A stretch of 26,416 nt of DNA from a virus, in the IMG/VR virus record IMGVR_UViG_3300023301_000084, positions 1 to 26,416 of that record; one strand, written 5' to 3'. The position numbers and the translations under genes were made by a program. Under the pieces are notes generated by a model. That model ran no database searches. It was not told the origin of the DNA and saw nothing but the letters and a program-made list of their open reading frames with translations. The number at the start of each line of letters is the position of its first letter. The first letter of the stretch is position 1. Shown here piece after piece: positions 4,507 through 26,416 of this stretch.

Positions 4507-4671
4507 TTATAACACAAAGGCAAAAACGGCTTTTATTTTCACGATATCCAAAAGTTCTTGCTCTAACCAAAGCGCATAATCAAGCAACTCTTCTTCATTT
4601 AATAAAGTTGTGTCTTGATCAGAAAGTGTTTTTCCAGTATTTTTTCTGTATTTGCTATGTATTTCATTCAT
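4507..4671 (-). CDS. Small hypothetical protein, coupled to the Rad50 C-lobe gene
   Basis: 54 aa, starting MNEIHSKYRKNTGK and containing an acidic helix L-L-N-E-E-E-L-L-D-Y-A-L-W-L-E-Q-E-L-L-D. The ATG at 4671 overlaps the upstream TGA as ATGA, the same arrangement as at many real junctions here. It is the last gene before the 93-bp regulatory gap. A second ATG at 4667 opens a shorter frame (22 codons) that looks less likely. Function unknown; the position suggests a link with the Rad50/Mre11 proteins. Confidence 0.65.
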   Translation of the reverse strand: MNEIHSKYRKNTGKTLSDQDTTLLNEEELLDYALWLEQELLDIVKIKAVFAFVL

Positions 4672-5300
4672 TCTTGTTCTGTTTTAGAAATTCTGTTTTT
4701 AATAGATACTTTAAATACTCTATCCGCAGCAGCAGCCAATTTTTCTTCATGGGTGACAATAATAAATTGAATGCCTAATTTGTCGGACAGTTCTTTAATC
4801 ATTTCAGATGCTTTGTCGTGCTTTGTTTTTTGCAAGAATTTAAAGGGTTCATCCAAAATAATAGTGTTTCTCGTTTTAGGAAACTGGATGCTCCAAGCAG
4901 CAATGCGCAAAGCAAACGAAGCGACATCAACGGCACCAACCCCACTGGAATCAATGGGTTTTAGTTGCACCCCATTTCTTTCAAAGCGCAAATCACATTC
5001 ATTTTTATCGCGCCTATCTACAAAAGACATAGTTAATGTATATGGATCTTCTGGAAATACAGCATCTAAAGCAAGTGATGTAATATCAGAAACATGGTAT
5101 TGTAATTGCGTTTGCGTTTTTTTACCAACTTCTTTAATTATAGCAAGTGCTTTTTCATGCAATAAATAGTCGTTTTGTAAAAGGTTATTTGCTTTTTCCT
5201 TTGCTATATTCTGCTGTTTCCATTCGGCCAACACCCCCTTTTTTCTTTCTAAAAAGGTGCGCATTTCTTTTAAACTATTGTTTGCATCACTCTTCGTCAT
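4668..5300 (-). CDS. Rad50/SbcC C-terminal ATPase lobe (split gene)
   Basis: 210 aa from the ATG at 5300; a TTG at 5342 in the same frame is less likely because it overlaps the upstream gene more. The N-terminal ~90 residues are coiled-coil-like. Then come a signature-like motif D-S-S-G-V-G-A-V-D-V-A-S-F-A-L-R-I-A, a Walker B T-I-I-L-D-E-P-F, and the H-loop V-T-H-E. There is no Walker A: it is the C-lobe half of an ABC ATPase whose N-lobe is encoded at 7112-8305. Together with SbcD it should form a Mre11-Rad50-like nuclease that processes DNA ends. The first 14 bp overlap the upstream coiled-coil gene. Confidence 0.85.
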   Translation of the reverse strand: MTKSDANNSLKEMRTFLERKKGVLAEWKQQNIAKEKANNLLQNDYLLHEKALAIIKEVGKKTQTQLQYHVSDITSLALDAVFPEDPYTLTMSFVDRRDKNECDLRFERNGVQLKPIDSSGVGAVDVASFALRIAAWSIQFPKTRNTIILDEPFKFLQKTKHDKASEMIKELSDKLGIQFIIVTHEEKLAAAADRVFKVSIKNRISKTEQE

Positions 5301-5544
5301 TTTCTTCAAAATCAAATTGATATTTACTTTCCAATTCCGCAATCCCCTCTATAATGGAATTGTCCAATTTTTCAATGTCTGCATCTAATGAAGTCAATAA
5401 TTCTTTGGCTTCTTTCAGAGTTTTGCATTTGTAATCCTCTTTTAATGTTTCCATTAAACTGGATTTGCGGCCATCTAATTTAGAAATTTTAGTTTTGGCT
5501 TCTTCAATGCGTTCTTTTAATTCAAATAAATCTTCCCGTTTCAT
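5287..5544 (-). CDS. Small coiled-coil protein, possible Rad50 arm segment
   Basis: 85 aa, almost entirely predicted helix with heptad-like spacing (L-F-E-L-K-E-R-I-E-E-A-K-T-K-I-S-K-L, later L-D-A-D-I-E-K-L-D-N-S-I) and an acidic C-terminus. It lies directly before the Rad50 C-lobe gene with a 14-bp overlap and could supply part of the descending coiled-coil arm of the split Rad50. No cysteines form a zinc hook (only one Cys, near residue 39). It could also be an independent accessory subunit. Confidence 0.65.
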   Translation of the reverse strand: MKREDLFELKERIEEAKTKISKLDGRKSSLMETLKEDYKCKTLKEAKELLTSLDADIEKLDNSIIEGIAELESKYQFDFEENDEE

Positions 5545-5839
5545 GTCGATTTCTTTTAAGTATTGCTAAAATTTGTTTTTCTGTTACTTTTTTATTTGTT
5601 ACCATCGGCAACAACAACAAAAACTTTTTTCTGGAAACACTATATGTTTTAAGAAGGTGTTTCCAGAAAGTCGGGTCTTTTTCTAATGCACAAAATAAAA
5701 GGGCATTGTTTTTTACTTTTTCTGGGTATTGTCGTCTAAAGATATCCGGATCCTTTAGTTGTTGGGATGTGGAACATCTACTCTTGCTCAACGACTTATT
5801 TCCAATGTGGTAACTAAAATCATATAAGGGACTGCTCAT
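5522..5839 (-). CDS. Hypothetical basic protein
   Basis: 105 aa, not recognised. Basic, with a helical C-terminal half (V-S-R-K-K-F-L-L-L-L-P-M-V-T and K-Q-I-L-A-I-L-K-R-N-R) and one region rich in aromatics near the N-terminus. Starts at the ATG at 5839, overlapping the end of sbcD by 20 bp, and ends 23 bp inside the next gene. Its place between sbcD and the Rad50 C-lobe suggests a partner of that complex. The overlaps argue that it is really translated. Confidence 0.55.
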   Translation of the reverse strand: MSSPLYDFSYHIGNKSLSKSRCSTSQQLKDPDIFRRQYPEKVKNNALLFCALEKDPTFWKHLLKTYSVSRKKFLLLLPMVTNKKVTEKQILAILKRNRHETGRFI

Positions 5840-6755
5840 AATCAGTGGCTTTATAGACCAAAGACATCACATCTTTGTCTGGTTTAGAGGATCTTTCAAA
5901 GGCTTGTAGATTTTCTGCGAAATCTAAACCACCTTCCCATTTAGAAAAACTTTGTGCGAACTCACTAATTCTGCTATCCCGTTCTTTTACTTTTTCTATG
6001 TGTTCAGTAGAAAAAACATCTTTTTTAATAGGCAAAGGGACTGGTACAATCGTATTCGTTTTTGCATACCACAAGTACACACAAGGTTTGTAATCAATTT
6101 GTTTTGTGTTCATTCTCATTAAGGAACCGCAATTTACTAAAAGTCGGCCTTTGTATTCCTCTATAAATGGTTTGTGGTTATCCCCAGTTACAATTAAATC
6201 GAATTGGGGGTATTTTTTCAACAACCGCAACGCATGGGAAGCGCCATCTACAGAATCCATCCAAGGTTCTTTTACTTGATAAACACATTTGTGCCAAATA
6301 AATACACGTTTTCCTTTTATAACAAATCCATCTTCTTTTTCTGGTTCATCCCTCCAAAAACCAAATGGGACTGTTTTTAGTACTTTTGTTGCTTCCAATG
6401 CATACAACCCGGAAAATTGCCGTTGCTCATAGACATGCTGTGGTAAATCGTGATTCCCATAACATACATTTGTATTTGCTGGTATGTTTTCGGCAACTTT
6501 GGCTATCAGGTAAGGGGATGGTTTCCAATGGTCGAACACATCGCCAGCTAAATAAACACCGCAATCATGTTCTTCTTGTAATGCTTTTATAAATGCCACT
6601 TTGTCCCACATAGCTTTTTGATAATCATCTTTTCTTCCTATCGGTGTATTTAATGTAAGATGCCAATCCCCACTAAATATCCCATCAGCCTTACCTAGTC
6701 CGTTTAAACTTAGAACGTTTTGGCGTTTTGGTTCTTTTAACTTTGTTCGTATCAT
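5820..6755 (-). CDS. sbcD: SbcD/Mre11-like metallophosphatase nuclease
   Basis: 311 aa. The calcineurin-like metal motifs are complete and in order: G-D-W-H-L (29-33), G-D-V-F-D-H-W (71-77), G-N-H-D (100-103), W-H-K near 176, T-G-D-N-H near 212, and N-C-G-S-L. The family binds two metal ions, and with Rad50 trims DNA ends and opens hairpins. It is shorter than bacterial SbcD (~400 aa), as usual in phages. It sits between the two Rad50 half genes. The start at 6755 lies 65 bp inside the previous gene; the N-terminal MIRTKLKEPKR resembles the MKRTK starts of other genes here. Confidence 0.9.
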   Translation of the reverse strand: MIRTKLKEPKRQNVLSLNGLGKADGIFSGDWHLTLNTPIGRKDDYQKAMWDKVAFIKALQEEHDCGVYLAGDVFDHWKPSPYLIAKVAENIPANTNVCYGNHDLPQHVYEQRQFSGLYALEATKVLKTVPFGFWRDEPEKEDGFVIKGKRVFIWHKCVYQVKEPWMDSVDGASHALRLLKKYPQFDLIVTGDNHKPFIEEYKGRLLVNCGSLMRMNTKQIDYKPCVYLWYAKTNTIVPVPLPIKKDVFSTEHIEKVKERDSRISEFAQSFSKWEGGLDFAENLQAFERSSKPDKDVMSLVYKATDYEQSLI

Positions 6756-7107
6756 TTGAGATTTTTAATTTATTTAACTCATGATTTGCTTGTAAGGCTT
6801 CTGTGTGAAAAATTAAAATCCTTTTTTCTCTAGGAATTAGTTTTCTAAAATAGGCTAATTCCGGGGGGTTTCTTTTTGTCTTTTTTAAAAACAAAACCCT
6901 TGTTTCTTCCATGTGTGGTTGGCAGAAATCTTTAGTGGACCATTTTGTTTTCCCGGTTGTTTCTTTTAAAGCTGCCATAAACTCATCATAACCCACTCCA
7001 ATATTTCTCTGCCAAAGTTGGAAAAACACAAGGTCTTCCGCAGTCCAGTCTTTCCACACGTTTGAAACAAATAGGAGCCATGCCTGTTCATACGTTAATT
7101 GCTTCAT
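6691..7107 (-). CDS. Hypothetical protein
   Basis: 138 aa, starting MKQLTYEQAWLLFV at the ATG at 7107, five bases past the upstream stop; a GTG at 7140 and an ATG at 7131 lie in frame but inside the Rad50 N-lobe gene. Not recognised. A tryptophan- and phenylalanine-rich middle (W-K-D-W-T-A-E-D-L-V-F-F-Q-L-W-Q) is followed by a strongly basic tail ending K-R-S-K-F-K-R-T-R, which suggests nucleic-acid contact. It lies between Rad50 N-lobe and sbcD and overlaps sbcD by 65 bp. Confidence 0.6.
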   Translation of the reverse strand: MKQLTYEQAWLLFVSNVWKDWTAEDLVFFQLWQRNIGVGYDEFMAALKETTGKTKWSTKDFCQPHMEETRVLFLKKTKRNPPELAYFRKLIPREKRILIFHTEALQANHELNKLKISNDTNKVKRTKTPKRSKFKRTR

Positions 7108-7111
7108 ACTT

Positions 7112-8305
7112 TTAATGTTTATGAAATTCATTCGAGCCACATAAAGGGCAATGTTCTGGAAAACTATTTGTAAATTCTAAATCAAGTTTTGTTATTTGTT
7201 TTGTGCCTTTTGTAATATCAAAATCAACATCCTCCATAGACAACACCAAGGTAGTTAATTTTTTTTGCTTTTTTATTTGTTTTGTTTTCGATGCTATTAA
7301 GGTCAACACAGTAGAAACAGGAAATTCTAATTCCGTTAATGCTAATAATTTTTTTGTTTCTTTTTTAATAGAATGCGCATTGCTACTTAGTGCATGTAGC
7401 CGCTCTTGTTTATTTGTTAATTGCTTTAATGATGCCAAAGATGTGATTAATGTAGTTACTAAATGGTCTGCTTTTTTAATTTTCTCAAATTTGGTTATGG
7501 TACTTGTGGTGGTGTCTATTTTTTTCACTAATTCCAATAGCATTCCTTTGCTTTCTTTTGCAAAAGTGACCTCGGCATACAGGTCTGTAATTTTAGTCAC
7601 CAGAACCTCCATTCCTGCCCAATGGTCTAATTTGAGTAATTCTGCATTTACATTTTTTGCTGCCGTGACTAAACTTCGTAAATTAGCAGCCCGTTGATAT
7701 AATTTTTGAACTTTGTGTTTGTTCGCTTCAAGAACCTCCAAATCTATTTCTAATTTATAAATGTACTTTGTGGATTTTATTTTCGTTTCATTGTCTGCGA
7801 TAACAGCAGCATTTACCTTTATATCTTGTACAATTGTGCGCATCCAACTTTTTACATTTTTTTGCCCACTGTCTATTTTATCTAAATTGGCAATCCTATT
7901 AAAGAATTTTGCAACATCTCCAGAAGTATTAGATAATAGAAATGGACTATCTAATTGCACTTGCAAATTAGTATCATTCATATTAATTGCTTCCTTAATA
8001 GGGGCTGGGACATCTGTTCCTATGCCTGTGAATTTCATCCCTCCAAAGACATATTTATTTTCTGTTCCTTTTGTCCGTTTGATAATATCTTCATTTTCTA
8101 ATCTAATAGAAACAGATGTGTCCCCACCATCCCATGAACGAAAAGCATCCCCACTCGGACTATTTGTTGTTACCCAACGTAAAGCACGGATAACAGCAGA
8201 TTTGCCGCTATCCGTATTTCCTATAATCACATTGACACCTTTATGTAAATCAAGTGTCGTTTTTTTGTGACTTTGGAAATTTCTAATACTTAATTTTTCA
8301 ATCAT
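7112..8305 (-). CDS. Rad50/SbcC N-terminal ATPase lobe with C-terminal half zinc hook (split gene)
   Basis: 397 aa. The N-terminus reads L-S-I-R-N-F-Q-S-H, then Walker A G-N-T-D-S-G-K-S (29-36) and the R-A-L-R-W of AAA_23-type ATPases; a long coiled-coil arm follows from ~150. The protein ends with C-P-L-C-G (C386, C389), the half zinc hook that lies at the arm apex in Rad50, only eight residues before the stop. Walker B and the signature are missing and occur at 4668-5300. Normal Rad50/SbcC is one chain with the hook in the middle, so the gene appears cut at the hook. Start overlaps the secreted-protein gene by 8 bp. Confidence 0.88.
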   Translation of the reverse strand: MIEKLSIRNFQSHKKTTLDLHKGVNVIIGNTDSGKSAVIRALRWVTTNSPSGDAFRSWDGGDTSVSIRLENEDIIKRTKGTENKYVFGGMKFTGIGTDVPAPIKEAINMNDTNLQVQLDSPFLLSNTSGDVAKFFNRIANLDKIDSGQKNVKSWMRTIVQDIKVNAAVIADNETKIKSTKYIYKLEIDLEVLEANKHKVQKLYQRAANLRSLVTAAKNVNAELLKLDHWAGMEVLVTKITDLYAEVTFAKESKGMLLELVKKIDTTTSTITKFEKIKKADHLVTTLITSLASLKQLTNKQERLHALSSNAHSIKKETKKLLALTELEFPVSTVLTLIASKTKQIKKQKKLTTLVLSMEDVDFDITKGTKQITKLDLEFTNSFPEHCPLCGSNEFHKH

Positions 8306-10879: not shown

Positions 10880-11314
10880 CTACCTATCGTCACCAGAGCC
10901 GCCAAGTTTGTTTCTTTCTTGCCGACTGGCCAACTTTTTTACGTTTAGTTTTGCTACGTGAGAAAGTGGGAATCCTAAGTCCCGCGCTAAAATAGCAACG
11001 TACCAAAGCACATCCCCTAATTCCTTAGCAATATCCTCCTTTTCTTGGGTGTTAAAGTCGCCTTGCTTATCTCTCAGCACCTTTTTTACTTTGTCAGCAA
11101 CTTCCCCTGCTTCCCCGGTTAATCCAAGTGCGGGGTAAATAATACTATGCTTACTTGGATAGGTTGCTGTTTTTTCTGCTTCTTCTTGATATTCGTCTAA
11201 TGTCATGGCTGTCGTTATTATTGTTATTTTTTTAGGTTGGTTTACTAATTCTATTTTGTTATCATAGACTTTCCAACGCCCTATTTGAAATAAATAATTT
11301 ATGGGGCGCTTCAT
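10880..11314 (-). CDS. mazG: MazG-like nucleotide pyrophosphohydrolase
   Basis: 144 aa. The helical metal-binding core is clear: [24 protein letters not shown] and [10 protein letters not shown], ending in [15 protein letters not shown]. This family hydrolyses (d)NTPs or related nucleotides; phage members may clean the dNTP pool or lower ppGpp. About 35 residues precede the domain; the start at 11314 overlaps the recombinase stop as ATGA, but an ATG at 11206, right before L-D-E-Y-Q, is an alternative. Confidence 0.85.
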
Positions 11315-12363
11315 CTTTTTTTCTTTTTCCGCTCTGTTTTAAATTTGTCTTGCATCTCTTGCCACAAATTAATTACAGCATTTTTCAAATCCTGTTCCAG
11401 TCCTTGCTCTTCCACCATTTTAATAGAGGAATCCATTTCTTTTGCTAACTCAACATCATCAATAAAATACACTTTTTGTGAGGAATAGTCTTTTAAAAAT
11501 TGCAAGTTTGCCCGGATATCATCCACCCCGTAATCAAAAATAATATAAACTTCTGCTGTCCTATATGGGGCATCAGTACTATTTTTAAAAACTTCCACCG
11601 TTGAAATAATACCGATGGTTTTGGTAAATGCTTTTCCTTTGATTTTCTTTTCTATTTTAATTTTCTTTTTCAAAGAGAATCGTAATCGAACAGAGGCATA
11701 AAAACCAATGGCTTCTCCTCCCGGTGTAACATACTTTTGCCCAAACATTCCGGCATCTGTATTTACTCGCATTTGGTTGCTGCAAACCATCAGATAATTT
11801 TTTTGTTTAAGCACCCGCGCAAACTTTCTAAAGCCTTCCGAAAACTCTTTAGCGCGCCGCATTCCCATTTTATCGCCGTCCTTGTTGTCCATTTCCATGT
11901 TCGTGGACAAAGCGGCTAAGGAATCGGTAAATACACCGTGAATTTTTGCTTTGGTTCTAGGCTCCCATGTTTCCAAGTCCTGAAACATTTCTGTCACAGT
12001 ATCGGGCTCTTCTATGGTCATTTCGTCTATGTCCATATCGAACATAGAAGCAAATTGTTTGTTTAGTCGCGCCTCCGGATCATTAAATTTTGTATCCCCT
12101 CCCATTCTTTGTACATAGCCAGCAACTTCGCACAGCAAAACCGTTTTTCCTGTTCCAGAGCCACCAAATGCTTCTACTAGAATGCCTCCGGGCAGACCAC
12201 CACCACGTACACGACTTCCAGAAATTGCTAAATCCAGCAGTGTGGATCCTGTTGAAACCATGACTTCTGTATTTCCTGCAAATGGTTTGTCTTTTTTTGA
12301 AGGCTGCGCTAAATATTCTTTTTTAGATGCAGTGGATGCTTTTTTCTTTATTGTTCTTTTCAT
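11311..12363 (-). CDS. UvsX/RecA-like recombinase
   Basis: 350 aa from the ATG at 12363. Walker A G-G-S-G-T-G-K-T (67-74), preceded by [11 protein letters not shown] and a G-G-G-L-P-G-G turn as in RecA. Walker B-like V-F-T-D-S-L-A-A-L near 146 and the L2 region [23 protein letters not shown] follow. It should form filaments on ssDNA and promote strand exchange with the SSB and the coiled-coil mediator encoded upstream. C-terminus is lysine-rich. The gene lies just after the hairpin at 12381-12406, which may separate it from ssb. Confidence 0.9.
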
Positions 12364-12380
12364 AAACAAGTTGTAAAATT

Positions 12381-12406
12381 AAGTGAGGGGCAATCACCCC
12401 TCACTT
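12381..12406 (-). terminator. Strong hairpin after the SSB extension, possible terminator
   Basis: A perfect 10-bp stem AAGTGAGGGG / CCCCTCACTT with a 6-nt loop, starting at the stop codon of the frameshift extension and ending 17 bp before the recombinase start. On the minus strand it is followed by AATTTT, a weak U-tract; on the plus strand by TTTT. It may give partial termination, or protect the ssb mRNA end so that SSB is made in excess of the recombinase. Confidence 0.6.
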
Positions 12407-12541
12407 TTAAAAAGGTAAATCATCGTCTGGAAACTCATCAGAGGAATGTGCATAACAATCATCCCAAATACTGCACAAATCACACGCTTTATAAGAGTCA
12501 CAATCTTTTCCAAACACAAGCCCGTGTGGGCACTTATCTAC
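12407..12541 (-). CDS. Frame -1 cysteine-rich extension of the SSB gene
   Basis: 44 sense codons in the -1 frame relative to ssb, from GTA at 12541 to TAA at 12407. The peptide has V-D-K-C-P-H-G, G-K-D-C-D, C-D-L-C, W-D-D-C and ends P-D-D-D-L-P-F: five cysteines and a histidine that could bind zinc, with an acidic end. No ATG lies in frame; one GTG is mid-domain. From memory, related Cys-rich tails end some gp32-like phage SSBs, so this is probably the C-terminus of a longer SSB reached by -1 frameshifting. A homopolymer indel in the assembly would look the same. Confidence 0.7.
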   Translation of the reverse strand, partial: VDKCPHGLVFGKDCDSYKACDLCSIWDDCYAHSSDEFPDDDLPF

Positions 12542-12547
12542 TTTTTT
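12520..12547 (-). promoter_or_regulatory. Predicted programmed -1 frameshift site
   Basis: In the ssb frame the end reads AGA AAA AAG TAG, that is an A_AAA_AAG heptamer (12547-12541) as in E. coli dnaX, followed directly by the stop. Nine bases further on, GCCC-ACAC-GGGC (12531-12520) can form a 4-bp stem, extendable by AA/UU across a bulge. A run of ten A upstream (ending at 12549) adds slipperiness. After the slip, reading continues at GTA. Confidence 0.65.
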
Positions 12548-13578
12548 CTTTTTTTTTTGGAGGATGCTTTAGCTTTAGCAGACACCGTTTTCTTTTTCCT
12601 AACAGGTGGTGCCTCTTCTTCGTCCTCATCATCATCATCGTCATCGTCTGAATCATCTGAATCATCTGAATCATCTACATCCTCATCATCGTCTGCGTCG
12701 TCGTCTGCATCATAATCATCGTCGTCGTCGTCATCATCATCCGGCTCAGGAGCCTTCACTTTTTTCTTGGCTTTTTTCTTAGGTGCCTCTTCTTCGTCCT
12801 CATCATCATCATCAACATCATCATCCTCGTCTGCATCATCTTCCTCAGTCATTTCAAGGAATTTCTTTTCAAGTTCCTCATACGATAATATGTTTAGAAC
12901 TTTGTCAAGATCTGCAACTTCTTCTAAGATAGACTCATCATACGGCTCATCTCTTTCTTCAAAATCAATGCGGTTGGCTTTTGCAAATGGTTTTGATGCT
13001 CCTACTGTTTCGCTAGAAAACCGTATGTTTAAAGTTAAGCCATCCTCTAGGTCAGGAAAATTCTCATACTTTTCATTCTCACTGACTTCTGTTTCTAGTT
13101 GGTCCTGAAAACAATATTCAGAGATATCCCAAATGTGAATCGCATCCTCTGCTTTCTTATCTTTTGGCTTAATATTGTACAAAGCTCTTGAAGATGGGCG
13201 AATGGCATCTGTTTCTTTTTTGTCGGCATTTCCTTGCTTCATCAGCTTTGCGCGATACTCACAAATCGGGCATTTCTTACCAATAGATGTTAAACAAACG
13301 ACAGCTTCATTATCAGCCCCAATATTTCTGTGAATTTTAAAAGGTCGGTAATACCATTGCTCCCCCTTTTCTGCCCCATTTTCTTTATCTGGGTGATTGT
13401 TTACAGAAACAATGTATGGAATTATATCCATCATTAGTCGTTTTTTAGGATCCTCTTTAAATATAGAGATTCCTTTTGGTAGTTTTAAGTACCCATAATT
13501 CCCACGTGTGGATGCTTTTTTAGCAATGGCACCTTTAATCTTACCACTAAATCTTCCTTTTTTCTTTGCTTTCTTCAT
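12538..13578 (-). CDS. gp32-like single-stranded DNA-binding protein
   Basis: 346 aa in the zero frame. A basic N-terminus (MKKAKKKGRFSGKIKG) precedes an OB-fold-like core with a zinc-type set H83, C95, C103, C106 (C-P-I-C-E-Y), as in gp32-type SSBs. From ~255 the chain alternates very acidic runs (long Asp stretches around 258-270 and 285-325) with lysine-rich KKK-A-KKK patches. Acidic tails of SSBs bind partner proteins. The acidic part is coded by GAC/GAT/GAG repeats and may vary in length by slippage. It ends in KKKRKK at the predicted frameshift site; the frameshifted protein would be 390 aa. Confidence 0.85.
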   Translation of the reverse strand: MKKAKKKGRFSGKIKGAIAKKASTRGNYGYLKLPKGISIFKEDPKKRLMMDIIPYIVSVNNHPDKENGAEKGEQWYYRPFKIHRNIGADNEAVVCLTSIGKKCPICEYRAKLMKQGNADKKETDAIRPSSRALYNIKPKDKKAEDAIHIWDISEYCFQDQLETEVSENEKYENFPDLEDGLTLNIRFSSETVGASKPFAKANRIDFEERDEPYDESILEEVADLDKVLNILSYEELEKKFLEMTEEDDADEDDDVDDDDEDEEEAPKKKAKKKVKAPEPDDDDDDDDDYDADDDADDDEDVDDSDDSDDSDDDDDDDEDEEEAPPVRKKKTVSAKAKASSKKKRKK

Positions 13579-15657: not shown

Positions 15658-16014
15658 TTATTTAAGTAAGTCCTCAAATGGCAATTGTATATCCCCTATG
15701 GCAAGTGCCTTTTTAATTTCCATCACAAGCAATACAATAAAAACAAACTCTTCTAATGAAGAACTATGTGCTAATAATATTTCTATTATTTTTGTTTTTC
15801 TGTTTTCTTTGAGCAGTGCTTGTTTTATAATAGCCATATTTTCTGCATTCTCTAAATAATCCTTGGTTCCTTGTGGAACGCCAAAGGCTTTTGCAAGGTC
15901 AACTTCCGCGCTGTTTTGTTCTTTTTTGACATGCAACAACATATCATTTTTTAAAACATTAAAAGCCCCCTGCGCTACAATGTCTTCTACTTTGGTTTTA
16001 TTTTTGTTAGTCAT
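15658..16014 (-). CDS. Hypothetical protein behind promoter element copy 1
   Basis: 118 aa, not recognised. Mostly helical; residues ~75-105 contain a hydrophobic stretch (S-S-S-L-E-E-F-V-F-I-V-L-L-V-M-E-I) that is probably a buried helix. It is the first gene after the conserved promoter-like element (16026-16070), sharing the leader ACGAACGAACATG with the gene at 25225-25434. It precedes the clamp loader by 8 bp, so it could be a second loader subunit, but no motif shows this. Confidence 0.65.
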   Translation of the reverse strand: MTNKNKTKVEDIVAQGAFNVLKNDMLLHVKKEQNSAEVDLAKAFGVPQGTKDYLENAENMAIIKQALLKENRKTKIIEILLAHSSSLEEFVFIVLLVMEIKKALAIGDIQLPFEDLLK

Positions 16015-16025
16015 GTTCGTTCGTT

Positions 16026-16070
16026 TATTTACCCTATTATACGGGAATGTTTTTTATTAAGTGTGGAATT
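16026..16070 (-). promoter_or_regulatory. Conserved promoter-like element, copy 1
   Basis: One of three near-identical ~45-bp elements. On the minus strand it holds CACTTAATAAAAAACATT, then CCCGTATAATAGGG. TATAAT is 16041-16036, 21 bp before the ATG at 16014. CCC-g-TAT-a-ATA-GGG is a near-perfect inverted repeat, so a protein may bind across the box. No TTGACA or TTG lies at normal spacing, and there is no TAnnTTTG. It would drive the operon from the clamp-loader region on. Confidence 0.65.
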
Positions 16071-16076
16071 AAGCAG

Positions 16077-17495
16077 TTATTTTATTTTATAGGGCTGCAA
16101 GTCGGCCCAAGACGCGTCCACCGCCCCAATGTCAAATTCCACCCGGAGCGGCACCAATAACCATTTCCAATGCGCTGGAAGTTGTTTTGTCATAACCTCT
16201 ACTGCAATGGCCACAACTCTTTCTAATTCCTCTGGAAGTATGTCGAAAACAATAGCATCGTGGATTTGTCCAATTACTTTAGAATCCATTTTCTGCTGCT
16301 CTAAAATAAGAGTGATTTTGTCCAAACACCAAAGCAAACAATGAAACGCTGTGCCTTGTACGGGATAATTTATAGCATCATTTTTAGATAATGTAGAACT
16401 TGTGGATTTACTTGGGGATGAACAACGAAAACCTGTATATGTATCCACATACCCATTTTTTTGGTATTGCTGCCACTGCGTTTCTTTCCAATCCCTGTAA
16501 ACTGGAAAGCGTTTATCCCAAAAGTGACGTTCTATTTTTCTGATGTGTTCCGTAAATTCTGCCATAGAGGAAAGTCCTTGGCTAATTAGGTGGTCAGAGA
16601 GCATGGTTTTTCCCTCGTATTCCACCCCTTCTTGCGCCTTCCAATTGCCCATGGGTAGTTTGCCCCATTTGTGTGCCATATTGACCGCACAGGGTTTAAA
16701 ATAGTCTCCGTAAAACTCAGGGAATACAAACCCATTTTTTGCGGCTTTTCTTAATAAACTATGCCCAGAATGGTTTTTGTCAAATTTTGGAATTTTAAAA
16801 ATCTGTTTGGCAATGTCACCATGCATATCTTTCCCGGTCATAAGATACTTCAACATAGTTGGGTCCTTATGAAAACAAGCGGCAATCATTACTTCCAACT
16901 GGTTGAAATCTACTTCCGCTAATTGGTGCCCTTTTCTGGGAATTAGGCATCGTCTTGTTATTTCCATCGCCATTTTATCCCTTTTAGGGATGTTTTGGAA
17001 ATTTGGATCATTAGAGGAACTGCGGTACGTAGCAACTAAATTTAGATTAAAGTTCGGGTGAATAATTCCAGAATTGTTTTCACGCATAAAGGATCCTAAA
17101 TAGGTATCCCTTATTTTTTTTAGTTTGCGCATTTTAAGCATACTATTCAATTCTGGGATGTTTAAAGAGGACAATGCATCCTCATTAGTAGAACCTTTCC
17201 CTGATTTTGTTGTTGCTACTGGTGTGTGGCCTTTTACGTTGTAAAGGAAATCCGCTAATTGGGTGTCGGAATTAATATTAACTTCACTTTTTGCGCTGCG
17301 TTGCCATTCACGAAAAAATTCAGACTTTTTTATTTTTTTATCAATTTTGTTTATTTTGTCTGTGAGCTTTGTGTGCTGCTCATTGGCGTACTTTTCATCA
17401 AACCCTATTCCAACTCTTTCCGCTTTTGCTAACGCTAACGTGCCATTATGAAACAAATTGTATGCTTCGATACTATTCTGCTTTATTTCTAACAT
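16077..17495 (-). CDS. Family A DNA polymerase, polymerase domain only
   Basis: 472 aa. Motif A L-A-E-V-D-F-N-Q-L-E (192-201), motif B R-K-A-A-K-N-G-F-V-F-P-E-F-Y-G (249-263), as in many phage enzymes, and motif C Q-I-H-D-A-I-V-F-D with H412 and D413 (A follows in place of the usual E). T-Y-R-S-S-S-N-D-P-N-F-Q-N-I-P (157-170) is the conserved template-binding segment. There is no exonuclease domain at the N-terminus; that domain is encoded by the gene directly upstream (stop 8 bp before), so the two proteins likely form one replicative polymerase. Confidence 0.92.
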   Translation of the reverse strand: MLEIKQNSIEAYNLFHNGTLALAKAERVGIGFDEKYANEQHTKLTDKINKIDKKIKKSEFFREWQRSAKSEVNINSDTQLADFLYNVKGHTPVATTKSGKGSTNEDALSSLNIPELNSMLKMRKLKKIRDTYLGSFMRENNSGIIHPNFNLNLVATYRSSSNDPNFQNIPKRDKMAMEITRRCLIPRKGHQLAEVDFNQLEVMIAACFHKDPTMLKYLMTGKDMHGDIAKQIFKIPKFDKNHSGHSLLRKAAKNGFVFPEFYGDYFKPCAVNMAHKWGKLPMGNWKAQEGVEYEGKTMLSDHLISQGLSSMAEFTEHIRKIERHFWDKRFPVYRDWKETQWQQYQKNGYVDTYTGFRCSSPSKSTSSTLSKNDAINYPVQGTAFHCLLWCLDKITLILEQQKMDSKVIGQIHDAIVFDILPEELERVVAIAVEVMTKQLPAHWKWLLVPLRVEFDIGAVDASWADLQPYKIK

Positions 17496-17503
17496 AGTGT
17501 TTT

Positions 17504-18703
17504 TTAAAAAGGTAAGAAATCATAGCCTAATTTCGCTGTTTGGTATTCCATTAAACGATATTCAAGAATAGAATCCATTGCACAATAAGTCAAAACGTTT
17601 TCTTCATTTTCTTTTGTTTTTACAAAATCAAGTAAGTTGTTTGTGCTATTGGAATCTTTTGCTTTTAAATGTGGGCTGATCTCACTATCATAATCAATAA
17701 TACCAAACCTAATGTAACTTTGAAATTTTAAAGACGTTATGCCAATTCGATTATCCATTTGGTGGGATGCTATTTGCGTGTCCCAAGCCCAACCAGCAAC
17801 AGGCGTTTTTAATTTTACATTGCTCCAATTATCCTCAAACTTCATGTTTTGTGCTACTTTTAGTATATTATGATTTTTTAAAAACTGCCGAAATGGCTTT
17901 CTCCCTTCTTTGGTTTTTGGCATTTTAAACGTGAACACATGATCCGCACTATCGGCAATAGAGGCACAATATATTTTTTGTTCTTTGTTGTACGGTTTAA
18001 TCCCCGTTGTTTCATAATCAAATGCACAGATCCCACGTATTTTATTTAAAATAGTCAGGTCTGTAAGCACCTCTATTTTTGGTTGGACAAACGTAGGAAA
18101 CAATCCATTAGTTTCTTCGGCTATTCTTTTAATGTCCTGTTCAAAAATAGTCTGTGCCTCTTCGTCTGCAATATAAACGAAGGAAGGGCTTAAAACAGGG
18201 CAAATAAAAGCATTGATTTGTTGGTCGGGTATAATAAAACCACGCCATTTGTGAATATTGTCCAAATCTTTCTTCCACCTATGCCCAATCACACTTTTTA
18301 AGGCAGCATCCCCAAACAAAACAATTACACGGGGTTTATATTTTTCTATTGCTGCGAATACAAATTTTCTACATGCGTCTATGGAACTATTTAGTTTTTT
18401 ATTCTCTAGTTTGCTTCCCGGGTAACACGACAATGCATTGATATTAATACAATCCTCTTCTATATCAATCCCATATTTTGCATACGCCCGTTTTAGAATG
18501 CGCCCTTTGCCTAAAAAATAGCCATTTTCTTGATCGTCCGTTTTGTTGGGAAATTCCCCAATGTTCATAATCCCTTTTTGAAATCCACCAGAAGGTTTCA
18601 TTTTTGGGCTGTTGCAATCTTTAAACAGCCCACAGGATATGCATGAGTTCTTTTTCCCAACAGTTGTATCTTTATACTTTTCCCCAGAAAATAATGCTGG
18701 CAT
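17504..18703 (-). CDS. UDG-like domain fused to a 3'-5' exonuclease
   Basis: 399 aa from the ATG at 18703, one base after the clamp TAA. Residues 1-195 look like a family 4/5 uracil-DNA glycosylase: four Fe-S cysteines C21, C24, C93, C111, a G-E-F-P motif (49-52) and V-L-F-G-D-A-A-L. The usual H-P-S motif is S-P-S (172-174), so glycosylase activity is doubtful. Residues 220-399 form a DnaQ/RNase D-type proofreading exonuclease: F-D-Y-E-T-T-G (D229, E231), Q-N-M-K-F-E-D, and Y-C-A-M-D near the end. It should proofread for the separate polymerase gene. Confidence 0.85.
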   Translation of the reverse strand: MPALFSGEKYKDTTVGKKNSCISCGLFKDCNSPKMKPSGGFQKGIMNIGEFPNKTDDQENGYFLGKGRILKRAYAKYGIDIEEDCININALSCYPGSKLENKKLNSSIDACRKFVFAAIEKYKPRVIVLFGDAALKSVIGHRWKKDLDNIHKWRGFIIPDQQINAFICPVLSPSFVYIADEEAQTIFEQDIKRIAEETNGLFPTFVQPKIEVLTDLTILNKIRGICAFDYETTGIKPYNKEQKIYCASIADSADHVFTFKMPKTKEGRKPFRQFLKNHNILKVAQNMKFEDNWSNVKLKTPVAGWAWDTQIASHQMDNRIGITSLKFQSYIRFGIIDYDSEISPHLKAKDSNSTNNLLDFVKTKENEENVLTYCAMDSILEYRLMEYQTAKLGYDFLPF

Positions 18704-18704
18704 A

Positions 18705-19718
18705 TTATTCAAATTGTGATAAAATGGCTAAATACTTCCAATTTCCTGCTTCAAACTTAATCTTTGTTTTTCCAAGGTACACTATGGTGTCCTTTTCTTT
18801 TAAAATATCAAGAAATAAATGAGGCACGATTTTAAATTGGACCTGCTCTCCTTTGTATTCCATTTCTGTTGTTTCCTCAAAAGATGCGTATTCCGATTTA
18901 GCCACAACTTTAATTTTCTTCTTAGAAACAGTAATGTATAGGAATTCATCCATTACGTAATCCCTTTTTGAAAATATCATAGCTTTTTCAACTATCGAAA
19001 GCAACTCCTTTGGAAGTGACAGAAGAACATCATCACCCTCACCCCATTTTTTAAAAAACGGATCAACTGCTGGAAATTCTGCGTTAAATATACGACAACT
19101 TAAAATCGTGTTTGTCGGTGTTTTAAAATGAACCCAATTTTTTTCAACACAGATTTTTGTGGGGTTGATTGTGGTTATTGTCACAACTACATCGGCTGGA
19201 AGTAAAAAAGACGTATCAAAATCACTAGTACAGCGGCAAGCACGGAATCTATCCGTAGCCTCAATAAAACCATCGGCACGAATATTTAAACAAGTCATAG
19301 CCGGCATTGCGGCATTTTTAGAAGCTGCTTTTGCTACAAATTTAATATCATTTAAAAAAGAAGGGGGGAGTTTTTTCCATTTCTTTTTCTTTTGCAACTC
19401 AGATAAATCTAATTTGATATCCGCTTCCAATGTCAATGTCACTTTGCTGCGGCCAGCGGCCAATAAAAGAACATTGTCTTCAACACTAATCGCAATATCT
19501 TCTTGCTTTGTTTTGTGCAGGAACTTGTATAATTCCTCTGCTTTTACAGCACCAATAATATCCAAATCCTCTACTGGATGGGATACAGAAATTTCATCAT
19601 TGTATGTCACAACTCTATTGCCCATGAAAGCAAAAGAACTACTTTGCTCAATCAGTTCTTTGTTACTTAGGCCCGGTTTTACAATGGATAATGCATTTAA
19701 TAAGTCGGTTGTTTTCAT
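18705..19718 (-). CDS. DNA sliding clamp, beta-clamp-like
   Basis: 337 aa. Three repeated beta-rich domains can be traced, with A-M-P-A-M-T-C-L-N-I-R-A-D-G-F-I-E-A-T-D-R-F-R near 140 (the domain 2 pattern seen in DnaN), and the C-terminal domain ending in L-A-I-L-S-Q-F-E. It is a little shorter than bacterial DnaN (~370 aa). It encircles DNA and tethers the polymerase; the polymerase, exonuclease and loader genes follow. The ATG overlaps the stop of the small upstream gene (ATGA). Confidence 0.82.
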   Translation of the reverse strand: MKTTDLLNALSIVKPGLSNKELIEQSSSFAFMGNRVVTYNDEISVSHPVEDLDIIGAVKAEELYKFLHKTKQEDIAISVEDNVLLLAAGRSKVTLTLEADIKLDLSELQKKKKWKKLPPSFLNDIKFVAKAASKNAAMPAMTCLNIRADGFIEATDRFRACRCTSDFDTSFLLPADVVVTITTINPTKICVEKNWVHFKTPTNTILSCRIFNAEFPAVDPFFKKWGEGDDVLLSLPKELLSIVEKAMIFSKRDYVMDEFLYITVSKKKIKVVAKSEYASFEETTEMEYKGEQVQFKIVPHLFLDILKEKDTIVYLGKTKIKFEAGNWKYLAILSQFE

Positions 19719-20948: not shown

Positions 20949-21131
20949 TTATGGTTGTATTGTGCAGTTTTCATTTTGTTTCTTTTTATATTTTATTAAC
21001 TCAAAAGCATAGGGAACCATAGCTTTTTTATGCAGAATATCCCAAAAAGATAGTAGCCGGTTTTCCAAAAATTTCTGCAAATGTGTCTCCCTCCTGCTTG
21101 ATCCCATTGTCCCAGCAAAATACATTTTCAT
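20949..21131 (-). CDS. 60-aa protein resembling the DpdA N-terminus
   Basis: 60 aa: [17 protein letters not shown], then N-R-L-L-S-F-W-D-I. The neighbouring DpdA begins V-M-F-A-G-V-P-G-G-G ... R-R-E-K-E ... Y-R-L-W-T-Y-Y-W-I, so the order of features matches. It looks like a duplicated DpdA N-terminus with no catalytic part. It overlaps the folE stop as ATGA and ends 3 bp before dpdA. It could be the remnant of a second dpdA, or a small regulatory or assembly partner. Confidence 0.65.
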
Positions 21132-21727
21132 TTTAACAAGTGCATTAATTCTTGTCTGGCAGAACTATTATCCATAAATGCACCACGCAATGAAGATGTA
21201 ACCATAACAGAGTTTTGTTTATCAACTCCGCGCATCTGCATACACATGTGTTGTGCTTCTACAATACAAGCGGCACCAACTGGTTTCAAATGTTCCATCA
21301 ATGCGTCTGTTACTTGTTGCCCAAGTCGTTCCTGAATTTGCATTCTCTTTGCAAACATATCTACAAGTCTAGCTAGTTTGCTAATACCAATAATTTTCCC
21401 ATCTGGAATGTAGGCTACATGCGCTTTTCCATAAAAAGGTAAATTATGGTGTTCGCACATGGAATAGAACTCAATGTCTTTTAACAAAACAATTTGGTTA
21501 TACCCATCCGAATCAAAGACAGTCAACAAGTCCTCTGCATTTTTGCGATATCCAGAATAAATTTCATCCCACATTTTCATAATTCTCTTCGGGGTGTCCA
21601 AAAGCCCCTCCCTGTTTGGGTCTTCCCCTATCCAACGCATCATATTTTGAATGCCTTGTTTATTAGAATTATAGGCGGTCATTGGATCTTCGTCCGCATC
21701 ATGGTTGCAATCACAGTTGTCACACAT
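21128..21727 (-). CDS. folE: GTP cyclohydrolase I
   Basis: 199 aa. Zinc-site motif C-E-H-H (91-94), [14 protein letters not shown] near 107-120, Q-E-R-L, and the E-A-Q-H-M-C-M-x-M-R-G-V block that supplies the other zinc cysteine. It converts GTP to dihydroneopterin triphosphate, the first step to preQ0. The N-terminal 15 residues are Cys/His/Asp-rich (C-D-N-C-D-C-N-H) and extra to the family. It lies 10 bp after queC and overlaps the next gene by 4 bp. Confidence 0.95.
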
Positions 21728-21737
21728 AGTTTTTTAT

Positions 21738-22406
21738 TTAAAATTCGTCATTAATGTATAAAATAGGATCCGTTCTTTCATTAAGTTTAAATGCCTCTAA
21801 TCGCTCAACACAAGATCCACACTTCCCACACGCAATATTATCAAAGCCTTCATAGCACGTTCTTGTTAAATGGTATGGGGTTTGTAAGGCCAACCCAAGT
21901 TTTACAATTTCGGCTTTGGAATGGGTAAGGAATGGGGCGATAATGTTGACATGACCACCGGAGGCAAGTAAGACCGTATATTTTAGAGAGTTTATAAAAT
22001 CAGGACGGCAATCTGGGTATATAAAGTGATCACCTTGGTGGACACCTAATGCGACAAAAGGGATCTCTTTAGATTGGGCCAGACCAGTAAGGATGGATGC
22101 AAAAATTAAATTTCGTGCTGGGACAACAGTTCTGCTCATACTGTTATCATTATAGTGTCCTTTAGGAATGACACCACCAGATATTAATAAATCCGATTTG
22201 AAGTCTTTCATCACACCACTCATATCAATTACAGAATGGTTAATAGAATAATGGGCAGCAATTTCTTTGGCCGCAGCAATTTCGGAATCATTGTGTTTGC
22301 TTCCATAATAAAAGGAAACCCCTTCCGCAATATGTCCTTCATGGATGTAATGAGCAAGCACCGTGGCACTATCTAAGCCACCAGATAAAGCTATTAATAC
22401 TTTCAT
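21738..22406 (-). CDS. queC: 7-cyano-7-deazaguanine synthase QueC
   Basis: 222 aa, the usual length. PP-loop ATP-binding motif S-G-G-L-D-S (8-13), P-A-R-N-L-I-F near 96, and the C-terminal zinc site C-G-K-C-G-S-C with an upstream C (T-C-Y-E-G). It turns 7-carboxy-7-deazaguanine into preQ0 with ATP and ammonia. There is no glutaminase (Gat) fusion, which argues against a Gat-QueC type dG+ modification. It is the first gene after the terminator at 22427-22446. Confidence 0.95.
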   Translation of the reverse strand: MKVLIALSGGLDSATVLAHYIHEGHIAEGVSFYYGSKHNDSEIAAAKEIAAHYSINHSVIDMSGVMKDFKSDLLISGGVIPKGHYNDNSMSRTVVPARNLIFASILTGLAQSKEIPFVALGVHQGDHFIYPDCRPDFINSLKYTVLLASGGHVNIIAPFLTHSKAEIVKLGLALQTPYHLTRTCYEGFDNIACGKCGSCVERLEAFKLNERTDPILYINDEF

Positions 22407-22420
22407 AATTAAAAAAGATT

Positions 22421-22452
22421 AAAAAAGGCAAGGATTTTGCCTTGCCTTTTTT
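22421..22452 (-). terminator. Bidirectional-looking intrinsic terminator
   Basis: Stem GGCAAGG (22427-22433) / CCTTGCC (22440-22446), loop ATTTTG, with an A6 run on one side and T7 on the other, so the minus-strand transcript has the stem followed by six U and can pair further. It follows the histone-like gene (stop 22477). With the promoter at 23232-23262 it delimits a short transcription unit, though some read-through must reach queC unless queC has a promoter I cannot see. Confidence 0.8.
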
Positions 22453-22476
22453 TATTAGTATATCACAATTTCTTTA

Positions 22477-23181
22477 TTATGCTTTGTAGAATTTCTTACC
22501 ATCGGCTGACTTCTCAATGTCCATGTCAGTTTCTCTGGAAATTCTTCCGGGCACTTGTGCGTTTACAGTACTTTTCATACTACTGGCAGCCCTATCAGGA
22601 AACTCAATTACCAATGCATCTAAAATGTCTTGTTTGGTGATTTGCTTCTTTTTGCTGGTTTTTGACAGGATGTCTTTGATTGTGGCAATCACACCTTTTC
22701 CAGATCCAGAGGTTCCTTGTGCTTTTTCTGGTCGTTTTCCTTTGGCTTTAGGTGCTGGGGCAGCTTCCTCTTTTTTGGCTTTTTCTTTTTTCCCTTTGGC
22801 TTTTTCTTTTTTGCTTTTAGCCACTACTACTTCTTCTTCCTCCTCCTCGTCTTCGTCATCATCATCTTCTACCACTTCCTCTTTTTTAGCTTTGCCCTTT
22901 TTCTGTTTCTCTTTTTTGCTTTTAGCCACTACTACTACTTCTTCTTCCTCCTCGTCTTCGTCATCAGCAGAAGCCTCCCAAGGCAATTCTACACCAAGAC
23001 CAGCTAAAATGACTTGTACTTCTGCGGAAACATCCTCTTTGTCATCTTCCACAAGTTCTGCGGCTGCTTCGATTACTAATTTTTTCAAAGCTGCTTCTTT
23101 TACTTTGCCAGTTGTTTTGATTGCAGGAACCAGTCCCAGCACATCATTTAATTCTTCTGCTGCTTTTTTTAAATCTTTCAT
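22477..23181 (-). CDS. Histone-like protein with alternating acidic and basic blocks
   Basis: 234 aa. N-terminal helices (1-67), then two copies of a ~40-aa block of D/E-rich runs followed by V-V-V-A-K-S-K-K-E-K and lysine-rich K-G-K-K-E-K-A-K-K-E-E (about 72-145), an Ala/Pro/Lys linker, and a C-terminal ~75-aa domain (V-I-A-T-I-K-D-I-L-S-K to the end) that resembles a small winged-helix or H1-like fold. No enzyme motif. It may compact or organise modified DNA, or act as an abundant protein-binding scaffold. It has a predicted promoter and terminator of its own. Confidence 0.7.
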   Translation of the reverse strand: MKDLKKAAEELNDVLGLVPAIKTTGKVKEAALKKLVIEAAAELVEDDKEDVSAEVQVILAGLGVELPWEASADDEDEEEEEVVVVAKSKKEKQKKGKAKKEEVVEDDDDEDEEEEEEVVVAKSKKEKAKGKKEKAKKEEAAPAPKAKGKRPEKAQGTSGSGKGVIATIKDILSKTSKKKQITKQDILDALVIEFPDRAASSMKSTVNAQVPGRISRETDMDIEKSADGKKFYKA

Positions 23182-23231
23182 GGTTGTTTTGATTAAATAA
23201 TTAATAATACTAATTTGATTTGGTAAAAACT

Positions 23232-23262
23232 CAAAGTTAATCTATTTTCTCGAAAGCACCAA
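23232..23262 (-). promoter_or_regulatory. Bacteroidota-type promoter for the histone-like gene
   Basis: TTG (23262-23260), 20 bp, then TAACTTTG (23239-23232): a full match to the known Bacteroidota -33 TTG / -7 TAnnTTTG promoter with its usual 19-21-bp spacing. Transcription would start near 23226, giving a ~45-nt A-rich leader before the ATG at 23181. The -7 box overlaps the stop codon of the gene at 23237-23455. Confidence 0.72.
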
Positions 23263-23455
23263 TAGCATTAAGAAGTTTTCTTACTTGCTTTGGGTATTCT
23301 TTTTTAGGAAAATTGGCAGTCAATGTAGCTTGCCAAAGTTTTTTAATTAAATACTTCTTTCCAAATTCTGGAGCTAAGGATATTTGTGGCTCTAATGCCA
23401 TCAGTTTATTGAAAAAGATGGCCGCCAATCGTAATTTATTTTTTGTTATTTTCAT
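23237..23455 (-). CDS. Small hypothetical protein after queE
   Basis: 72 aa, basic and helical (K-L-R-L-A-A-I-F-F-N-K-L-M-A-L, later Y-L-I-K-K-L-W-Q-A-T). Not recognised. The ATG overlaps the queE TGA as ATGA, so it is coupled to queE. Its last codons contain the -7 box of the next promoter. It may be a partner of the preQ0 enzymes or just co-transcribed. Confidence 0.6.
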   Translation of the reverse strand: MKITKNKLRLAAIFFNKLMALEPQISLAPEFGKKYLIKKLWQATLTANFPKKEYPKQVRKLLNAIGAFEKID

Positions 23456-24216
23456 ACCCCAGTCATTTTATCCCATAGAACAACATGTTCTCTGGTGCAA
23501 TACCGAACGCCATAATCAACTGCTAAGGAAACAACAGCATCCCTATTTTCTTCCAACTCTTTTCTGTCCCCTCCTTGTGGCATCAAAATAATTTGGGATT
23601 TTGAAATGTAATTTGTTTGTACAAAATCTTTCCAAATTTCTTGCAAATCCTTTTCGTCCTTTACAACAAACTTAAACCAACTATTTCTCAGTGCCGATAA
23701 TGCGTTTAAAACTTCTGGATTATACCGCAACCCTTTCCAATTTCCTGAATTTGCAAGTTTTGGGCTGTTGTTCCAACAAGTTATCTTCTTCTGCATGTAA
23801 GCGGAAGGCATAATCACACATTCGTTTTCAATTTCCAAATAAGGCAAAAAAGAGAAGTATGCTTCAAATTGTATTAAAAATATCTCAAGCATTTCCTGTT
23901 GTAATAATGGGCTGCCACCTGTTAATACTAAATGCATTCCGGATTCTAATTTGTCCACCAATCCAGACTCTTGCATCATTGTAAGTAGGTCTTTTATAGC
24001 AAAAGCATTGCCATGTCTCCAAACAGACGCGGTATCACACCAGATACAATTCATTGTGCAATTTTGCAATCTTAAAAAAGCAGCAGGGCATCCTGTATTT
24101 ACACCTTCCCCTTGTATTGTGTCGAAGAAGAACTCAGATACATTTAAAAAATGCTGTCCCTTTGGAATTGGGGCTGTTACTCTGCTTTTGTTTGCTTTGA
24201 TTATTTGTTTTATCAT
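23452..24216 (-). CDS. queE: 7-carboxy-7-deazaguanine synthase QueE
   Basis: 254 aa radical SAM enzyme. Motifs: F-D-T-I-Q-G-E-G (31-38), A-F-L-R-L-Q-N-C (46-53), cluster cysteines C53, C57, C60 in C-x3-C-x2-C spacing, and W-C-D-T. The usual T-G-G-E-P reads T-G-G-S-P (Ser for Glu), a change worth noting near the SAM site. It contracts the ring of 6-carboxytetrahydropterin, made by QueD, whose gene ends 2 bp upstream. Extra residues (125-160) form an insert. ATGA overlap with the following gene. Confidence 0.92.
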   Translation of the reverse strand: MIKQIIKANKSRVTAPIPKGQHFLNVSEFFFDTIQGEGVNTGCPAAFLRLQNCTMNCIWCDTASVWRHGNAFAIKDLLTMMQESGLVDKLESGMHLVLTGGSPLLQQEMLEIFLIQFEAYFSFLPYLEIENECVIMPSAYMQKKITCWNNSPKLANSGNWKGLRYNPEVLNALSALRNSWFKFVVKDEKDLQEIWKDFVQTNYISKSQIILMPQGGDRKELEENRDAVVSLAVDYGVRYCTREHVVLWDKMTGV

Positions 24217-24218
24217 AG

Positions 24219-24611
24219 CTAATCGTTATATGAAAAGGTAGCCGCTGTTTTTGGGGTTTCCTTTACTGTTATTGCTGAGATTGTCACATCTGTCACTAAG
24301 TTCTGAAAGACCACAAACAATGTGTGTGCCATAGTTTCCGCAGAAGGATTGCCTTTAAAAAGTGGATGTGTGTTGTTTTCGTCTAGGACATCATTTAGGT
24401 GGTGATGGTCTAACTTGTCATCAATCCACTTTTTAATTGGGTCCAGTTCCCTGTAATCTTTTACAAATCCAACCTCATTTAAGCCGAGGCTTTTCAATTC
24501 GACTACAATGATGTAATTATGTCCATGCATCCTCCCACATGGGTGTCCATCATTTAAGCCAAATAAAATATGACTTGCGCTAAAATGAAATTCTTTACTA
24601 ATTGTGTACAT
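24219..24611 (-). CDS. queD: 6-carboxy-5,6,7,8-tetrahydropterin synthase QueD
   Basis: 130 aa, typical length. Zinc ligands H14, H29 and H31 (in H-G-H), catalytic C25 in H-P-C-G-R-M-H-G-H, D-H-H-H-L-N-D near 68, P-S-A-E-T, and V-K-E-T-P at the C-terminus. It converts dihydroneopterin triphosphate, the FolE product, to carboxytetrahydropterin. First of the preQ0 genes in transcription order. Confidence 0.95.
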   Translation of the reverse strand: MYTISKEFHFSASHILFGLNDGHPCGRMHGHNYIIVVELKSLGLNEVGFVKDYRELDPIKKWIDDKLDHHHLNDVLDENNTHPLFKGNPSAETMAHTLFVVFQNLVTDVTISAITVKETPKTAATFSYND

Positions 24612-25224: not shown

Positions 25225-25434
25225 TTACGGCATCCTTTTTTTAATTTCACATTCTCTAACTACTTTCTCATCCGAGTACTTATCTGAGATTATGTACTCA
25301 ATACTATGTTGTCTAAAAACAATGCCCATGACCATGTGTGGTGTTTGGTCAAGATCAACCCTCATGTACACAATTTGCTCGAAAGAAAATTTATTTTCAA
25401 TCTCTGTGCTTGTGCCCTCTTCGTGTTGTTCCAT
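25225..25434 (-). CDS. Small hypothetical protein behind promoter element copy 2
   Basis: 69 aa, acidic N-terminus (MEQHEEGTSTEIENK), then a beta-rich part (V-Y-M-R-V-D-L-D-Q-T-P-H-M-V-M-G-I-V-F-R and Y-I-I-S-D-K-Y-S-D-E). Not recognised. It begins 22 bp after the TATAAT box of copy 2, with the same ACGAACGAACATG leader as the gene at 15658-16014. As a first gene after the antirepressor it may be an early host-interaction protein. Confidence 0.6.
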   Translation of the reverse strand: MEQHEEGTSTEIENKFSFEQIVYMRVDLDQTPHMVMGIVFRQHSIEYIISDKYSDEKVVRECEIKKRMP

Positions 25435-25446
25435 GTTCGTTCGTTT

Positions 25447-25490
25447 TATTTACCCTATTATACGGGAATGTTTTTTATTAAGTGTGGATT
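25447..25490 (-). promoter_or_regulatory. Conserved promoter-like element, copy 2
   Basis: Identical to copy 1 over 16026-16066 apart from the far end (ATT in place of AATT). TATAAT is 25462-25457. It lies between the stop of the antirepressor-like gene (25515) and the ATG at 25434, and probably starts the transcript that leads into the preQ0 block. Confidence 0.65.
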
Positions 25491-25514
25491 TGACCATTTA
25501 TTTGTAATTTATTT

Positions 25515-26350: not shown

Positions 26351-26395
26351 TATTTACCCTATTATACGGGAATGCTTTTTATTAAGTGCGGAATT
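26351..26395 (-). promoter_or_regulatory. Conserved promoter-like element, copy 3
   Basis: Matches copies 1 and 2 with two T-to-C differences on the plus strand (26375 and 26389). TATAAT is 26366-26361 inside the CCC...GGG inverted repeat. The sequence after the box diverges from copies 1 and 2, so conservation is limited to the element itself. Drives the antirepressor-like gene. Confidence 0.65.
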
Positions 26396-26407
26396 GTTCG
26401 TTTATTT

Positions 26408-26416
26408 TTAAGATAG
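26408..26416 (-). CDS. Last codons of an upstream gene
   Basis: Only CTA TCT TAA (L-S-stop) is inside the window. The surrounding 16 bases (26401-26416) are the same as at the end of the antirepressor-like gene (25509-25524), so the upstream gene may be a tandem paralog of it. The fragment is too small to call a product. Confidence 0.3.
   Translation of the reverse strand, partial: LS

Follow-up and report, generated by a model that had tools for sequence, protein, structure and literature searches.

We propose that the gene for a gp32-like single-stranded DNA-binding protein (SSB) in this phage gives rise to two proteins, one with and one without a Cys-rich C-terminal tail, and that RNA-polymerase slippage on a run of ten adenines (A10) is the best explanation of how one gene would do so, an explanation we consider somewhat more likely than not. 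Unslipped mRNA would be read to a TAG just past A10, giving a short SSB with a basic KKKRKK end; where RNA polymerase slips on A10 and adds one A, the mRNA would join the SSB frame to the tail frame, giving a long SSB with the Cys-rich module of its family and an acidic DDDLPF tip. We infer the slippage, its transcriptional nature and the production of both proteins from sequence. Two SSB forms had already been suggested in a first-pass annotation of the window (the whole stretch of 26,416 nucleotides that was analysed), and they stand as the best reading on the strength of the tail's homology and of a frame break that is both shared and recurrent.

The SSB gene ends, on the minus strand, TCC AAA AAA AAA AGA AAA AAG TAG, and the features of this junction are collected in Table 1. 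From 12541 the -1 frame runs for 44 codons, with five Cys, to a TAA at 12409-12407, and the GCCC-ACAC-GGGC sequence lies at 12531-12520 of the same strand. The elements to which the first-pass annotation had drawn attention (A10, an in-phase A_AAA_AAG, the TAG, the GCCC/GGGC pair, the 44-codon five-Cys -1 frame and the hairpin) are all present. The hairpin past the tail may be terminator-like or 3'-stabilising. The stem-loop around GCCC/GGGC does exist, though it is weak (z of -1.46 over 42 nt, with nothing notable across longer stretches), and its GGGC arm reads GGGT in L004, a close relative of the window.

Table 1. Features of the SSB junction and its surroundings, in coordinates of the window
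Feature	Position	Strand	Remarks
gp32-like single-stranded DNA-binding protein, short form	12538..13578	-	zero-frame ORF, 346 aa, ends SSKKKRKK
A10 run, proposed slippage site	12549..12558	-	window's genes have no further sense run of A>=9
A_AAA_AAG, possible ribosomal -1 slip site	12541..12547	-	zero-frame phase, directly before the stop
TAG ending the short form, zero frame	12538..12540	-	two sense codons (AAA AAG) past the AGA that holds the run's end
-1-frame tail VDKCPHGLVFGKDCDSYKACDLCSIWDDCYAHSSDEFPDDDLPF + TAA, long form only	12407..12541	-	Cys-rich module and acidic DDDLPF tip
Weak stem-loop around GCCC/GGGC, 3' of the A10 run	12511..12540	-	not conserved
Perfect 8-bp hairpin GTGAGGGG/CCCCTCAC, two bases past the tail stop	12383..12404	-	read from sequence
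UvsX/RecA-like recombinase, next gene downstream of SSB	11311..12369	-	phrog_97, E 1.7e-45

The short SSB is laid out as an OB-fold core with an H/C/C/C motif, a long acidic linker and a basic end. When the core was examined for gp32-type zinc ligands (H, C, C, C), H83, C95, C103 and C106 proved invariant among 59 sequences. Their H/C/C/C order is that of gp32's zinc site, and by residue pattern they are predicted zinc ligands. The Pfam family PF08804 matches 39 of the 59 SSB family members at E <= 0.01, and the window's SSB scores 21.3 bits against it, below the gathering cutoff of 26.8. A profile of the SSB family matched gp32 chains in the PDB (2a1k_A, E 1.8e-4), and the structure model of the core (pLDDT 90.6) led Foldseek to T4 gp32 (1gpc, E 1.8e-7, TM 0.58/0.63), so that a gp32-like OB fold is predicted for the core.

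Among relatives taken from IMG/VR and GTDB contigs, the tail is fused to the SSB in frame in 153 of 162 clusters (90% identity) and out of frame in 9. Most of them carry, after an acidic and Lys-rich linker, an in-frame CP-x-G...FG-x-D...C-x2-C...W-x2-C, and seven residues, four of them Cys, are invariant across 69 tails (C4, P5, G11, D13, C20, C23 and C29). Judged from this in-frame fusion in most relatives, the tail is part of the SSB. The first-pass annotation had looked to homologous SSBs for a fused Cys-rich tail, which these clusters supply, and had held that its reading would fail if relatives ended at KKKRKK and showed no conserved frame beyond; the opposite was found. It had also called the tail zinc-binding, for which the sign is the cysteine pattern (C4, C20, C23 and C29). 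The structure model of the tail is of low confidence (mean pLDDT 72, pTM 0.46), and sequence comparison of the tail with the PDB gave no convincing match. From its cysteine spacing we regard the tail as a putative small zinc-binding module. Its tip in the window, DDDLPF, has counterparts in other family members (DDIPF, DDIPY or DDLPF), and the window's tip and those of some relatives resemble the DDDIPF tip of Escherichia coli SSB, whose MDFDDDIPF is a hub for many partners (PMC7913777); by analogy with it, the tail probably recruits partners. We also considered re-initiation at a GTG within the tail and rejected it, as the product would lack the motif's first Cys.

The frame break itself can be followed into close relatives. 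A contig from another IMG record (L003) equals the window over 4059 bases, A10 included, and breaks off 18 bases beyond the stop. L004, at 93% nucleotide identity to the window, has its tail in the same register, with a different run (A10-G-A6 in the window, A9-G-A5 in L004) and an in-phase A_AAA_AAG two codons further upstream. The window and L004 tails are separated by 12 substitutions and 9 amino-acid changes in 44, with no stop, and the 10 tail motif positions tested are intact in both, which is weak evidence alone (p 0.066). Two errors with the same outcome in the window and L004 are unlikely, and by this comparison the frame break is genuine and common to a diverged phage.

When all fetched loci were surveyed with profile HMMs, 10 out-of-frame loci emerged, in nine 90%-identity clusters (the window with L004, L126, L238, L249, L252, L256, L258, L271 and L282). 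In the window, L004, L126, L238, L252, L256, L258 and L271 an A9 or A10 precedes a tail in the -1 frame; L249 has A10 and its tail in the other register, its relatives L184 and L255 having A9 and an open frame, and L282 has no A9 and reads GGA AAA AAC TGA. Since the A9 of L126 lies at that gene's own stop, 170 nt upstream of the tail, eight of the nine out-of-frame lineages stand on A9/A10. With L271 left out because it did not match the core motif used to cut rows, a tree of 155 SSB cores needs 8 state changes, at least five of them forced by well-supported branches, and a smaller core tree under a better model needs 7, again with at least five forced. At least five branches of the family thus appear to have broken the frame separately, each at an A run and mostly at A9/A10, and such separate breaks suggest that one gene probably makes both tailed and tailless protein. 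Where A>=9 stood within 45 nt of the tail, 7 clusters were broken and 3 fused, against 2 broken and 150 fused otherwise (Fisher 8e-9), counts in which junction A runs are enriched because A5 or A7 ahead of the tail was a requirement of the pattern scans. Among the 63 clusters found by protein alone there is a single out-of-frame lineage, that of the window, and A>=9 runs in these clusters number 2 at the junction versus 8.1 expected and 0 elsewhere versus 24.2 expected. As to register, one added base is needed in eight of the nine out-of-frame lineages (8 to 1, p 0.04).

Two further lines of evidence, the depletion of runs elsewhere in the genes and the placement of stops, are independent of the bias introduced by the A5/A7 scans. 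The window's genes hold one sense A>=9 run, at the SSB junction, versus 11.7 +/- 2.3 expected from synonymous shuffles, and in 10 loci (nine of the 10 out-of-frame loci, L282 being the exception, and the in-frame L184) the run at the SSB junction is the sole A>=9 run of the fetched stretch. Across 162 SSB genes, A>=9 occurs once outside the last 60 nt (68.6 expected) and 13 times within them (27.0 expected). Runs of A>=9 therefore look to have been purged from the genes of these phages; in many bacteria selection against A/T runs starts at nine (PMC1088944). Because DNA-replication slippage would purge long runs too (PMC1088944), the A9 threshold is no proof of transcription. The zero-frame stop falls 0-2 codons past the run in seven of the nine out-of-frame lineages, and when fused relatives are given a notional 1-nt deletion, 10% of them stop within three codons (binomial p 3.5e-6). 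For most of the in-frame genes that have A9 near the tail (L068, L125, L184, L255 and L279), a shifted frame runs into a stop within four codons, so slippage there would give the tailless form.

How the breaks should be explained is a separate matter. That they are sequencing or assembly errors in a homopolymer, or signs of a decaying pseudogene tail, is very improbable: homopolymers are error-prone and every out-of-frame locus is a metagenome assembly, but seven of the 10 tails behind A>=9 are broken, far above any usual consensus error, the window's break recurs in L003 and L004, no out-of-frame locus has a damaged tail motif, and the tails of L249 and L184 differ by synonymous changes only. 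The sequencing indel of which the first-pass annotation had warned is made improbable by this sharing of the break and by its recurrence. The breaks might otherwise be tolerated indels, the run slipping often enough that one-base changes are near neutral and the short form has no function. Breaks do occur where runs are long, and one clade with A9/A10 holds the tail in the zero frame (L184, L255), in the -1 frame (L258, L252) and in the other register (L249), which speaks for this reading; against it, stops cluster right after the run, the registers are biased, and the window and L004 keep theirs despite their different runs. Stop placement and register bias weaken this model, and we judge it quite improbable.

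The alternative that the first-pass annotation preferred, a ribosomal -1 programmed frameshift at A_AAA_AAG before the TAG, as in dnaX, would yield the long form by a different route. The heptamer is one of those that shift most readily in E. coli (PMC4066793, PMC5009743), it occurs in phase in the window, L004, L126, L252 and L238, an A_AAA_AAC stands directly before the stop in L282, and the tail lies in the -1 frame in all out-of-frame loci but L249. However, L256, L258 and L271 are -1 cases with no in-phase A_AAA_AAG, a -1 shift cannot restore the register of L249, and the heptamer needs only six A's, yet clusters whose longest upstream run is 5-8 are fused in 125 cases and broken in 2, and one of these 2 has its A9 elsewhere. 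Nor is a downstream structure conserved: z lies between -1.1 and 1.6 across the out-of-frame loci, with the exception of L271, and a stimulatory stem is supported neither by folding z-scores nor by conservation. By inspection, no AGGAG-like (SD-like) element lies in the 30 nt that precede the run in the window. As the main mechanism we think ribosomal slippage unlikely; with A_AAA_AAG also present in the window, it may contribute. In L271 a strong stem-loop (z -2.8) follows the A9 junction, as it does at none of the other out-of-frame loci.

Transcriptional slippage, by comparison, is favoured, as it would fit the run length, the variable 3' base, the excess of added bases, the lack of a conserved stem, and L249. 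The sequence signs of slippage are present in A10 at the junction and in conserved alternative-frame coding that adjoins the run, and the base after the run varies among the out-of-frame loci (G, T or C). In E. coli, slippage was detected on no run shorter than eight A's, and on A runs insertion is favoured over deletion (PMC6260861), although these thresholds may not be those of the RNA polymerase of this phage's host. Run length, 3' base, insertion bias, L249, the E. coli data and the precedent of tssM1 (below) together argue for polymerase slippage. On the broader idea, that in phages with gp32-like SSBs evolution has repeatedly put a slippery A9-A10, in any register, before a Cys-rich and probably partner-binding tail, and that the balance between tailed and tailless SSB on the DNA is set by slippage in place of a separate gene, our judgement is evenly poised.

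Several other features of the window were observed. A near-identical element with the core CACTTAATAAAAAACATTCCCGTATAATAGGGTAAATA occurs at 16012-16090, 25432-25512 and 26351-26408, mostly intergenic and between minus-strand genes, and resembles a phage promoter or operator in repeated copies. A family A DNA polymerase occupies two adjacent ORFs (17504-18712 and 16077-17495), a uracil-DNA-glycosylase-like and a 3'-5' exonuclease part in one and the polymerase domain in the other. An SbcC-like ATPase (4668-8305) seems split into an N-terminal part (7112-8305) and candidate C-terminal parts (4668-5342 and 5287-5544), whose overlap could mark a further frame junction; between the SbcC-like parts lies a gene for a calcineurin-like phosphoesterase (SbcD-like). 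By ORF reading, 21128-24611 is a likely queuosine/7-deazaguanine cluster (FolE-, QueC-, QueE- and QueD-like), which could mean modified DNA; within the same region, 22477-23181 encodes a second protein in which acidic and KSKKEK repeats alternate.

SSB tails recruit repair and replication partners; if the proposal is true, tailed and tailless SSB made by slippage would tune partner recruitment at the replication fork with no second gene. With standard gene finders, such SSBs would be cut short and the tail overlooked. The recurrence in at least five branches opens the idea to testing by comparison and by short reporter constructs. In the literature searched, itself incomplete, we found slippage described for no phage SSB, and tblastn searches with the window's SSB, two fused relatives and the tail consensus gave 0 matches in 50,697 phage isolate records.

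Among known systems, gp32 of T4 and RB69 is alike in its OB-fold SSB core with H/C/C/C, and this phage also has a UvsX-like recombinase; unlike gp32, the window's SSB family adds a long acidic linker and a Cys-rich C-terminal module, and neither such a module nor slippage has been reported for gp32 in the literature that could be searched. The slippery run of Thermus thermophilus dnaX is an A run, and in E. coli dnaX it is the short product that arises by the shift, with SD-like and stem stimulators present. T. thermophilus dnaX is alike in being a replication gene in which transcriptional slippage with nearby stops gives two products, and differs in encoding another protein, with its long product in a single ORF (PMC5009743). 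E. coli dnaX shares with the SSB gene A_AAA_AAG, a stop soon after it and a role in replication, its -1 frameshift being ribosomal (PMC5009743), whereas the SSB junction has no conserved stem. The methyltransferase gene of Campylobacter phage CPt10 is likewise a phage gene, with a confirmed poly-A frameshift for which slippage has been proposed; it is a single gene of different function, with no recurrence shown (PMC2853527). A close likeness is to the secretion-system gene tssM: in Citrobacter rodentium, tssM1 has A11 before a stop, mixed mRNAs and two forms, both needed, and C. rodentium tssM1 and Yersinia pseudotuberculosis tssM3 alike have a stop soon after poly-A and produce long and short forms by slippage (PMC4256274). 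The slipped mRNA gives the long form in one of these species and the short form in the other (PMC4256274), as would out-of-frame and in-frame SSB genes respectively. The tssM genes rest on A11 and on direct mRNA and protein evidence (PMC4256274), whereas the SSB case concerns a phage gene with A9-A10, found in many lineages and known here from sequence alone.
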